Shown one piece after another: positions 43,690-48,375 of a stretch of 64,000 nucleotides of DNA; position 1 is the stretch's first letter; every line of letters starts with the position of its first letter. Both the position numbers and the translations under genes were made by a program. Under the pieces are notes generated by a model. It was not told the DNA's origin, made no database searches, and saw only the letters and a list, made by a program, of their open reading frames with translations. The stretch covers positions 124,001 through 188,000 of the forward strand of contig JAVXUO010002353.1 of the NCBI GenBank assembly GCA_033065855.1. Reading direction: 5' to 3'. This DNA is from Escallonia rubra (taxonomy: Eukaryota > Streptophyta > Magnoliopsida > Escalloniales > Escalloniaceae).

Positions 43690-44437
43690 CATCTAACCAC
43701 ACCTCTTAACCCAGGAATGCAACAAAGATACCAAGGCACAAGAAAGAAAAAAGGTATGTTGGTGTTGGAATGGCGGCATACCTTTGGTCAAGTGCTTGGA
43801 TATTCAAAGCAAGCTGCAGAACCAGAAGTGGTCAGTGTTTTTGCTTTTCAAAATTTCTAAGAATGGCTATCATGAGACACAATTGCAAGAAAATCATTAG
43901 ATACTCGTGCATGCATGTACACTAACGCACCAGCTATGGACATGTTCAATCCAAAATGACACCATTTTCTTTATAAAGCAGTCAGCCAACCATTTTTTTT
44001 TCATTTGAATAACTTCCTGCATAGAACTCACATATTTTTGTAAGAGATATTTGTTTTTACCAAAGGGTTAATAGCGAAAATATACCCTCACATATGGCAC
44101 GTTTGCAAATTATATCTCAGACCTTTCAAAATAGCTTTTTTATTCCCCAAACTATGGCTAACGTTGCAAACGTTTACCTTCCGTCCATTTCTTTCGAAAA
44201 ATCTTGGGTTTGCAAAATTATCCCCCAACATATTGAGGGCATATTGGTAAAATCGCATGGGCATGTTTTGGAGGGAAAGATTGCGGGGCTGTAGCATAAG
44301 AGAGTCCAGTCCATACTCTGTTTTGGGTCATTTCCAAAACAGAGAAGATCATTTCGATCGTGGCACTAGAGACGATCGTTGGAGGATTTTGCCAAAATCA
44401 TCGAGACTACGGCTTCTTTCCTTCTATAATCGCGACA

Positions 44438-46697
44438 ATGGTGGGGGTTCTGCGCCAGGGCAACTACGGGCTTCCAGAATACGGTAAGTCATTCATTCAT
44501 TTATCTATTTTCATTAGATTCAATTATATTATCAATGATTACCTTTTGAACGATTGAAAATTAGTCGCGATTAGGGTTTTCTAGTGTTCGTATTTTCCTG
44601 TTAGAGCATTTCTTGCAATTAGGGTTTATGTTGTGCCTGTTGTAGTGAAACTGAGAAACATGGCTTTTCCTGTTATGGAATTGCAACATATTTTAATTTG
44701 TGCAAATATTCGAATGAATGCAATTAGGGTTTATGTTACACTATATCTTGTAATTAGGGTTTATGTTGTGGCAGTTGAGATGAAATTGGAAAAATATGCT
44801 TTTTATGTAATTCATTTTCAACATATTTTAACTTGCAATTTTTATTTGATTTAATGCAGACTATGACTCTGAATTCTTTACTATTGAGTTGCACCATGGA
44901 GGTGAATTTAGAAACTGCCCTGTTACAGTTTATGTAGGTGGTAAAGTTGCTTATTTTGACTACTGTGATCCAGATCAGATGTCTTTGCTTGAGTTGGTTG
45001 ATTGTTGTGAGAAATTAGGGTATGAAATAGATATGGAGAAACAAGAGAACTGGCCAAAATTTTATTCTAAGATGCATGGTTGCACCTTAAGTACAGGACT
45101 TCTGTTATTAGGGACAGATCAGATTGCCCTAAGCTTAACAAAAAATGTAAAAGACAATAGGGTAATAGAAGTTTATGTGAAGCACAGTGAACCCATGGAT
45201 AGTCAAGCCACTTCTACATCTACTGTTCTGCCTAAAAATGTGCAATCTTCTGGTAGAATTTTAGAGTCAGATAACACCATGGATGAAGACAGTGATGGCT
45301 CTGTAACCTCAAAGGACTCTGTAGAGGCTAGGGAAGAAGATGGTAAGATAGTGGACAGTGATTACCCTGTTAGTGATGATGAAGTTGTGAAACTGAGAAC
45401 AATTGAAGTAGAGGACTTAACAAAGGTTGTGGAAGCAGGGCATGACTCTGACTGTACACCAAATGAGGTGGAAGTGGATAGTTCATCTGATGAAGAAGGT
45501 GCTCCTAAAATGAAAAAGAAACCATGGAAAAAGATTAGTTATCCCCAGTTCAATGAATCAATGTCTGAAGATCCCTCATTTGAGTTAGGTCAGTGCTTTG
45601 CCTCACACCTACAATTGAGGGAAGCTATTAGGAATTATGCATGTAAGAATGGAAAATCCATTAGCTTTACAAAGATGGAGAAGAGAAGGGTTAGAGCTGT
45701 GTGTTGTGAGGGTGAATGTCCTTGGGTCTTATATGCTTCTTACATGTACAGGACCACCACTTTGCAAGTGAAAACCCTAAATCCTGAACACACTTGCTCA
45801 AGGACATATGAGGTTGACATGGTGAACTATAGGTGGATTGCAAGAAGGATAAAGTCTTCCCTGAGATCTAATCCTAAATGGCCAGTTCAAGCTATAGCTG
45901 ATACACTTCATGAATCATACAACATTGAGGCCTCTAAATGGCAAATATATAGGGCTAAGAAACTTGCTATGGAGGAAATTGAGGGCAATTGCAAGGAACA
46001 ATATGAGAAGCTATGGAGTTATAGGGCAGAGGTTTTGAGGAGTAACCCCAATACCACTTTTGATTTGGAGGTTCAGGGTGGTAGGTTTAAAAGACTGTAT
46101 GTATCTTTTGGGGGTTGCAAGAAAGGACTTGTGCAGTGCTTGAGGCCTGTACTCATGATGGATGGATGCCATTTAAAGGGCCCTTACAAAGGGATTCTAT
46201 TAGCTGCAGTTGGGATAGACCCTAATGATGGTATGTGGCCAATGGCTCATGCAGTGGTTGAAGTGGAGAATAAGGAGAACTGGAAGTGGTTTGTTAACCT
46301 GTTAATTGATGATGTGGGCATTCAAAATCAATCTGCCTGGACATTTATAAGTGATAAGCAGAAAGGTCTTGTTCAAGTGTTAGAGGAACTTGTACCACAG
46401 GCAGAACACAGGTTTTGTGTTCAGCATCTTGTTCAGAATTTTAGACTTGAGTTTAGGAGCAAAGCATTGACTGATCAGGTATGGGCTTGTGCTAGAGCTT
46501 CATACAAAGATAAGTTTGAGAGAGAGATGACAGTCTTGAAAAAGGCCAGTGAGGCTGCACATTCTTGGCTACTTGCTAGGCCAGCTGAACACTGGAGCAG
46601 GTCACACTTTAGAGAATTTCCTAAGTGTGACATGGAAGTGAAGTATGTTGGCATGGAAGTTAGTAGTTGGGTAATATACATATATAAATATTTGTAG
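44438..46697 (+). CDS. MULE (MURA/MuDR-type) transposase, C-terminally incomplete
   Basis: Two exons, 44438-44483 and 44860-46697 (GT-AG), give 627 residues. ATG 44438 is the first ATG in frame before the splice. Residues about 16-90 (IELHHGGEFRN, VGGKVAYFDYCD) match the N-terminal domain common in plant MULE transposases. An acidic stretch follows. Residues about 235-335 form the MuDR DNA-binding zinc domain, with CCEGECPWVLYASY and EHTC. The MULE catalytic core runs from about 370: D450 in LMMDGCHLKGPYKG, D514 in FISDKQKG, then CVQHLVQNFR. Homology stops after FREFPKCDMEV. The following NxxES-type segment and SWIM zinc finger are absent, and I do not find them in 46698-47200. The protein is therefore truncated, probably by internal deletion, and likely inactive unless an unseen exon exists. 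Confidence 0.88.
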
Positions 46698-47201
46698 GTT
46701 GGCCTTTGGCTATGGAGTTTGGGTTATATGCCCATTTTTTGTGAAGAAAATGGGGAATTTCATATGGCCATTTTTTGGTGCAAATAGAGTATGGTGAATG
46801 CTATATGCTGGGGCATTTTTTGTGCACATACGGGGGGTACAGGGTGATCATTTGGCCAGCTTTAAAAGGGCCAAACTTTGTGCAGATATTGGGGTATATG
46901 AGGAATATGAGCAGATAAATAGATGGGCAACTTTTTGTTTGTATACAAACTGCATTTGGCCAGGTCTTTAGGGCATTGTCTATGTGATAAATGCTTAACA
47001 ACTTTTGTTCACAATTGATGTAACTTGGATACTTTTGTACTAAGAGGGATGATTAAGTTTTAATATTAATGAGTATATTGTCATGTGTTGGATGCTTAGT
47101 ACATTTAATTAATGTGTTGTTACATTTGATTAAATTAATGACCGTGAAGTTGTCAGGACTTAGTTATTTACATCAACAAAAAGATGGTACACTGATAACA
47201 A

Positions 47202-47777
47202 TTATGGCAAATACAATATTTTACCAGTGTTGTTTACACAGTTTTTTTCCCCAAACCTAAACCCTACCAATAGAACTACAACTGCACACAAGATCACAGT
47301 CCATTTCTTCAAGCTTGAATTCTTGACGAGCAGCTCCATGTTCCTCCTCTCCAACTCAGACTTCTTTATCTCCAATTGTTGGTTCCTCAACTTCAACTGT
47401 ATACTCCTCTTGTGCATTTCATCATTCTGTACATGCCCCTCTTCTAATTTCTTTAATGCCAACCTCCCAAACACCATTCCATAATCGCATACATTCGGAT
47501 CAAACCATTTAAAGAACTTACATTTTTGTTCATCCTACATACATATAAAAAAAACCCTACATTAGTTAAGATCAAAATTTCATATGATTATCAAATTAAG
47601 AGTGTAGATAGTTACCTTGTAGTGAGCACATCCCAAAAATCTTCTACCCGGATTGTTCTTGGTCCACGACATGGTCAATGGGGCCGTTTGTCCACAATAG
47701 CAGGTGGTGGGCATGGATGAATTTGGGGAGTGGTTTGATTTTCCAGATCTGGAAGTATTGTTGCTGCTTTCAGCCAT
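47202..47777 (-). CDS. Small zf-GRF / coiled-coil / membrane-anchor protein carried by the MULE
   Basis: Two exons, 47616-47777 and 47202-47534 (GT-AG, phase 0), give 164 residues. Residues 26-64 form a GRF-type zinc finger: C26-x-C28-G, the NPGRRF signature ending in C50, then C59 and FFKWFD. A charged helix with heptad-like leucines (about 81-130) predicts a coiled coil. Residues about 132-147 (WTVILCAVVVLLVGF) form one hydrophobic membrane segment near the C-terminus. GRF fingers bind nucleic acid in some DNA-repair proteins; small plant GRF proteins of this layout are numerous and uncharacterised. It lies wholly inside the MULE, convergent with the transposase, as mudrB is with mudrA in maize MuDR. 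Whether it helps transposition is unknown. Confidence 0.85.
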
Positions 47778-48375
47778 GAGTGAGTGTGTGAGTGTGTGTG
47801 CGTGAGTGTCTATGTTGCGTGAGTGTGTGTGTGTGTGTGTGTGCGCATTTTGAATTTGGGGGAAAAAGAAGTCATTTTGCCCTTTATTCAGGTTAACAGC
47901 GTTTTTTGCAAAATTATACCTTAACATTTTTTAAGGTTGCATTTTTATACCCCAGATAAAAAGTGACCTGACCAAAATACCCTCGCAGTTAACGGAAAAA
48001 CTAACAGGGTGTGGGCACCAGAATTGTGCCATAGTTTGGGAAATAAAAAAGCTATTTTGAAAGGTCTGAGATATAATTTGCAAATGTGCCATATCTGAGG
48101 GTATATTTTCGCTATTAACCCTTTACCAAATTAGCAATCTTACTGCATAGCAGAAAAACAACAAAAAGTATTGGGATTAACGTAATGTATAGCTTTAGAC
48201 ATAACAATCTTTGAGGCTTACCTCAGTCAAATGACCATTGACAAGGTGTCCCATTCCTTCGGCTCTGCAATTTCCAACTTGATTAGCTAGAATAATATGA
48301 AAAATTAGGATTTGGATGCAGCAAAGATGCTGACCAAAAGAAGTAGAGGCATAGAGGAGCCGTGGTCCACAGCTG

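Follow-up and report, generated by a model that had tools for sequence, protein, structure and literature searches.

In plants, Mutator-like elements (MULEs) may carry a second gene beside the transposase. In maize MuDR this gene is mudrB, which is required for Mu integration, and the terminal repeats serve as the promoters of both genes (PMC8224964; this and later statements on the literature follow the available portions of the texts cited). The role of such second genes has been open since mudrB. Here we describe a MULE at positions 44065-48121 of a 64,000-nucleotide stretch of the Escallonia rubra genome (assembly GCA_033065855.1, contig JAVXUO010002353.1, positions 124,001 to 188,000; hereafter the window), in which a transposase gene faces a gene for a small protein with a GRF zinc finger. 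We argue that, very probably, a large clade of MULEs with terminal inverted repeats has the GRF gene as its regular second gene, and that gene and transposase have descended together while the elements diverged deeply.

Several other plant MULEs invite comparison. Abermu elements, known from barley and other plants, carry in types I and II an ORFR antisense to the transposase, in type II between the transposase and the 3′ repeat; ORFR has no assigned function and no likeness to MURB, evolves fast with a ratio of nonsynonymous to synonymous change (Ka/Ks) under 1, does not resemble its counterparts in distant plants, and is lacking from type III, which is found in 17 plants (PMC9168764). Like the GRF gene, ORFR reads against the transposase; the available text of that study names no domain in it and does not contain the word GRF, and the two are compared here by description only (PMC9168764). 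ORFR may be the same gene, hidden by divergence. Hiun (with vanB and vanC), VANDAL and the MULEs bearing PMD likewise have extra genes, some of them antisense as here, but these encode other proteins, and the survey that treats them never uses the word GRF (PMC6446971).

The Escallonia element resembles MuDR in its long inverted repeats with two genes converging between them, in its 9-bp duplication and, among its intact relatives, in a transposase with MULE and SWIM domains. A preliminary description of the window, made from the sequence alone, had likened the gene pair to mudrA and mudrB; the likeness is one of arrangement, and MURB is not known to have a GRF finger. Among the papers listed for open-licence PubMed Central texts (25 of 1,537 for one query), we found none tying GRF fingers to MULEs: GRF-type and MULE-type words both occur in PMC7729826, PMC12320393 and PMC13148073, and in passages of PMC10469895 and PMC11734081 the two words, or words so beginning, stand apart. 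That MULEs can have a second gene is known; the GRF gene, its plan and its reach are new as far as this search extended.

Results

A Transposase Gene and a GRF Gene between One Pair of Repeats

Long terminal inverted repeats and a 9-bp target-site duplication place the 4,057-bp element, with its termini GGGTTAATAG ... CTATTAACCC, among the MULEs. The repeat arms (44062-44158 and 48028-48124) are 97 nt long and 97% complementary, and TTTACCAAA stands at both flanks, equal at 9/9 bases. A plus-strand frame of 615 amino acids (44850-46697) matches the Pfam families MULE (9.5e-17) and DBD_Tnp_Mut, and the GRF gene converges on it from the minus strand within the same repeats, which is the MuDR-type arrangement. 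On all these points, the near-identical repeats, the perfect duplication around both genes and the convergence of the pair, the preliminary description holds. Scanned against Pfam, three further long frames in the window gave no match.

Joined across an intron placed from the sequence, the two exons of the GRF gene yield a predicted protein of 164 amino acids that matches PF06839 (1.3e-7; 32 bits against a curated cut-off of 25.9) and has one hydrophobic segment, 15 residues from its C-terminal end. GRF proteins from ten MULE families, the window's included, share this plan. All ten match PF06839 (E up to 0.01), and at 0.01 Pfam returns no other family except bZIP_2 in one of them, below its own cut-off. 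Their alignment has nine invariant columns over the finger, including C26, C28, C50, C59 and W64 (window numbering), of which the four cysteines are probable zinc ligands. The hydrophobic segment is present in 10/10 (mean hydropathy 1.9-2.6 over 17 residues), followed by 0-28 residues and preceded, in its 15 nearest residues, by two to six basic ones; judged by hydropathy, the layout would be that of a tail-anchored protein. The stretch between finger and segment varies widely in length and is coiled-coil-like by eye. The zf-GRF/coiled-coil/membrane protein that had been proposed is borne out in its finger, with the coiled coil assigned by eye and the membrane part by hydropathy. The intron lies at the same place, again by eye, in six of the ten families (those of the window, L049, L051, L052, L068 and L069) and is absent in four.

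A profile of the MULE GRF proteins finds the GRF fingers of NEIL3 among solved structures (2.3e-11); an AP-lyase chain, which we take to be APE2, matches it weakly (0.41). The fingers of NEIL3, APE2 and TOP3-like proteins belong to the same zinc finger family; these repair enzymes are not known to have such a coiled coil and C-terminal hydrophobic segment. GRF genes of host type also seem to occur in this genome: the 3.1 kb of sequence read at L037/L039 and L038 gives no match to a transposase, and one of them, with CCHC and GRF motifs, is presumably TOP3-like while the other seems to resemble APE2 (motifs judged by eye). A further family of 125-residue GRF proteins with a C-terminal hydrophobic segment (L040 and L042, on C983 and C1852) has no transposase match within 1.5 kb.

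Recurrence of the Gene Pair

All counts come from one genome (566 Mb in 3,222 contigs). It holds 14 further compact copies of the window element with both ends, and the GRF gene is present in all 15 compact copies, though only in part in two (L013 and L016). The sole two-ended locus with no GRF match is a 1.9-kb remnant (L023, on C915) that retains part of the transposase. Over these 16 loci the 9-bp duplication is perfect in 11, perfect at 8 bp only in one, and carries one mismatch in one and two mismatches in two; the remnant has none. At C1376, C1890 and C2815 the GRF gene and the transposase lie 11-15 kb apart, probably as a result of later insertions. Free of stops and frameshifts are 8/16 GRF frames of the window family (16 of 18 genes, the partial L013 and L016 set aside; the mapping behind this count drops insertions, and independently read frames agree for those eight), and 13/14 are open in the C1503 family.

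Much more distant relatives carry the same pair. Over aligned columns, transposase identity to the window family is 50% for L049, 42% for L052, 41% for L050, 40% for L051 and 35% for L053. In L049, L050, L051 and L052, repeats of 196, 123, 151 and 104 nt (99.5, 100, 97 and 99% identical, respectively) enclose a transposase and a convergent GRF gene, and perfect 9-bp duplications flank L050 and L051 (the sequence of L049 and L052 includes too little flank to judge). In L053 the transposase is broken and the GRF gene that converges on it is open. L068 and L069 show the convergent pair with an open transposase (in sequence taken without the element ends), and at L043 a transposase tail faces a GRF gene. 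Since divergent families carry the gene in the same place, it appears to be a lasting part of the transposon rather than an accidental passenger. The proposal that the GRF gene is an accessory gene of MULEs is supported accordingly; the preliminary description had held that full-length relatives without it would mark a single Pack-MULE capture, and close and divergent relatives alike carry it. Nor has a host gene replaced the transposase, as a Pack-MULE capture would have it, for a transposase or its relic lies beside the GRF gene in several families.

We also paired transposase loci with the nearest GRF locus within 8 kb by coordinates, keeping one row per locus and dropping extra fragments. 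The first transposase set comprised 79 loci, merged from 50 of 61 and 49 of 63 rows of two queries, and the GRF rows of several searches merged to at least 270 loci among the matches listed. At least 69 of the 79 had a GRF locus in range (median 1.8 kb), and the nearest was convergent in all 69. For the second group 149 of 154 matches were used, with a GRF side of 25 of 150 Pfam rows (chosen by family) and 147 loci from a closer query; at least 121 of the 149 were paired (median 2.1 kb), again with every nearest GRF locus convergent. The nearest GRF gene is therefore convergent and downstream in 190/190 pairs. By chance, 0.60 and 0.72 pairs would be expected in the two sets. Because the searches score best candidates only, the rates are lower bounds; with fewer GRF lists the first set gave 57/79, and with the Pfam GRF list alone the second gave 52/149.

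The same dependence on the list was seen in a transposase subfamily of 71-86% identity that first passed as GRF-free, with 60 of 61 loci lacking a GRF gene by the Pfam list; a closer GRF query paired 56 of the 61, and this candidate was rejected. As a control, the best 150 matches to PF10551 had 0/150 convergent GRF neighbours and one on the same strand. Most of the control set comes from a single distant MULE group, four loci of which (L045-L048) gave no match to five transposase queries at 1e-4, and the control is weakened because the Pfam list missed most GRF genes of the subfamily just described, so that diverged GRF genes could escape the lists. The suggestion that MULEs explain why small GRF proteins are so abundant is upheld in part: among the matches listed, a transposase is found no more than 8 kb from at least 69 of 270 GRF loci and from at least 52 of 150 Pfam GRF hits.

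Joint Divergence and Selection

Across eight families, the more alike two transposases are, the more alike are their GRF proteins (r 0.78, exact Mantel p 0.0014), a correlation that seems to be driven mainly by the L050/L068/L069 group and the distant L053. Within families, we compared variants among 15 window-family copies. Relative to a context-matched noncoding expectation, the ratio of nonsynonymous to synonymous singletons is near neutral (0.88 for the transposase, 1.13 for the GRF gene), as expected of dead copies. Shared variants that change the protein are depleted in the transposase (83 against 151 expected, 0.55) and in the GRF gene (13 against 27, 0.48), and the corresponding nonsynonymous to synonymous ratios are 0.76 and 0.66. 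Pairwise dN/dS (nonsynonymous over synonymous divergence) of the GRF gene is 0.39 in the window family (bootstrap 0.26-0.60) and 0.49 in the C1503 family (0.29-0.85). Purifying selection is visible in these ratios and in the depletion of shared protein changes, and the constraint on the GRF gene resembles that on the transposase, but within families the evidence is modest.

The Window Copy

The window copy is an internal-deletion derivative, with its GRF frame still open and its transposase incomplete. Arithmetic on the aligned joint shows that it lacks 1,968 bp present in L009, with 3 bp of microhomology at the joint, and the SWIM finger, present in L009, falls within the deleted part; the preliminary description must be corrected to this extent. 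L009 (6,104 bp) has an open transposase frame of 890 codons with a SWIM finger, as well as an open GRF gene. MULE and SWIM domains occur together in all seven relatives scanned (L009 and six divergent ones), against the MULE domain alone in the window. The gaps of the five other copies compared differ from this one. Coordinates are collected in Table 1.

Table 1. Features of the MULE in the window (positions in the 64,000-nucleotide stretch)
Feature	Position	Strand	Basis
Left target-site duplication copy, TTTACCAAA	44056..44064	none	sequence
Left terminal inverted repeat	44065..44158	+	97% complementary to right arm; ends shared with 14 further compact copies
Probable first transposase exon (ATG...TACG, GT donor)	44438..44483	+	by eye from sequence
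Transposase exon 2; DBD_Tnp_Mut and MULE kept, SWIM lost; stop behind deletion joint	44860..46697	+	domains; exon start by eye
Joint of 1,968-bp internal deletion, 3-bp microhomology	46631..46633	none	comparison with L009
Second GRF exon, with the fourth probable zinc ligand, a coiled-coil-like stretch, the hydrophobic segment and a short tail before the stop	47202..47534	-	sequence
GT..AG intron, 81 bp, inside GRF finger	47535..47615	-	splicing inferred from sequence
First GRF exon, with the N-terminus and probable zinc ligands one to three	47616..47777	-	sequence
Right terminal inverted repeat	48028..48121	-	repeat comparison of both arms
Right target-site duplication copy	48122..48130	none	sequence

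Repeats of several kinds lie in or beside the genes. In the window a GT-rich simple repeat (47773-47858) immediately precedes the start codon of the GRF gene; an array of 41-bp period occupies the matching position in L009 (6051-6160), and a CA/CT tract lies ahead of the GRF start in L051. An imperfect 102-nt direct repeat (75%; 44599-44700 and 44734-44835) lies inside the probable first transposase intron. Low-complexity tandem repeats stand at or behind the transposase ends of L009 (3618-3673), L050 (3125-3556) and L049 (3808-4217), and their sequences differ between families.

Discussion

The survival of one protein plan, in one position, in families whose transposases are only 35-50% identical is a stronger argument for a standing second gene than selection within families. 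As an overall explanation, a standing second gene together with the helper mechanism set out below seems to us the best available, with a probability of roughly 0.55.

Several observations weigh against this explanation, besides the modest strength of within-family selection and the origin of all the evidence for the role of the GRF gene in one genome. The 6.2 kb examined at L053 showed no inverted repeat. Among the matches listed, 10/79 and 28/149 transposase loci are without a GRF partner; of these 38, some are close to the end of a contig or share their contig with a GRF match 10-18 kb away. Silent variants that copies share also fall short of expectation (0.72 for the transposase, 0.73 for the GRF gene), so that part of the depletion does not come from selection on the protein. 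Leaving out L066, the copy that has diverged most, raises the dN/dS of the C1503 family to 0.71 (0.33-1.73), and in the window family the short GRF intron has diverged about as far (0.036) as the nonsynonymous sites (0.037). Finally, the transposase tree makes L049 the sister of the window family (support 0.997), which the GRF tree, with its weak supports, does not.

This last disagreement means that the gene may have been swapped. The window-family GRF protein is nearer the L050 type (40% against 29%), although the family is the sister of L049 by transposase, and L049 and L051 share 54% of their GRF residues against 44% in the transposase. An exchange of GRF genes between MULEs is possible on these comparisons, and one acquisition followed by descent with an occasional swap fits best.

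How might such a gene serve the element? We speculate, tentatively and at clearly less than even odds, that it encodes a tail-anchored helper of transposition that binds single-stranded DNA. The GRF gene would be transcribed from the right-hand repeat, like mudrB in MuDR; the finger would hold single-stranded or forked DNA; the coiled coil would form oligomers; and the C-terminal hydrophobic segment would anchor the tail of the protein in the membrane of the endoplasmic reticulum or the nuclear envelope, leaving the finger on the side where the DNA lies. So placed, the protein could aid the excised element or its target at integration or repair, the step at which maize MuDR needs mudrB. That need, together with the relatives of the finger, is what suggests a role in integration. 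We know of no membrane-bound transposition factor for a cut-and-paste transposon.

The main rival to this helper role, which we consider possible though improbable, is that the GRF protein shields the element from host methylation or silencing, for example at the nuclear edge or through demethylation repair. vanC of Arabidopsis Hiun, itself a second gene of a plant MULE, counters silencing (PMC6446971), and Arabidopsis APE2 is drawn with a GRF-type zinc finger in the available part of a study of active demethylation (PMC4191409). From family to family, GRF proteins are also less alike than most pairs of transposases, as would fit an arms race. Yet the Pfam scan of the ten proteins gave no chromatin domain, and a membrane segment would be odd in a chromatin factor.

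We think it unlikely that the finger interferes with host repair, competing with NEIL3-, APE2- and TOP3-like GRF proteins for single-stranded or forked DNA and so steering the repair of the excision gap. The profile matches described above and the apparent presence of host-like GRF genes would suit such a competition, which leaves unexplained both the kept hydrophobic segment and the fixed place beside the transposase.

A little less likely again is that MULEs captured such genes several times and independently, drawing on a single large host family of GRF membrane genes, in place of descent from one acquisition. The conflict between the GRF and transposase trees at the window family could be read in this way, as could the large differences between families in the stretch from finger to hydrophobic segment; but captures of this kind sit poorly with an orientation that is convergent and downstream in every pair, with an intron place common to six families and with the correlated divergence of the two proteins. 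That a host GRF gene was captured just once, by a Pack-MULE of the window family, has next to nothing left to recommend it even though MULEs do capture host genes (PMC6446971); for this genome it is ruled out by families whose transposases share 35-50% identity with the window family's and which carry the gene in the corresponding position.

The standing second gene of this clade might belong to something wider. The gene for the GRF/coiled-coil/tail-anchor protein could be the one that inverted-repeat MULEs of flowering plants generally have beside the transposase, identical with the ORFR of Abermu and perhaps a distant relative of MURB, integrating or protecting the element from the nuclear envelope; we regard this extension as doubtful. 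With a recognisable domain, recurrence in divergent families, a fixed position and many open copies, the GRF gene makes assays of binding, localisation and two-component transposition feasible for a class of genes whose role has long been in question. Many plant annotations of a "GRF zinc finger" would become transposon genes, and, if the wider proposal were true, so would most of the small GRF proteins annotated in plants.

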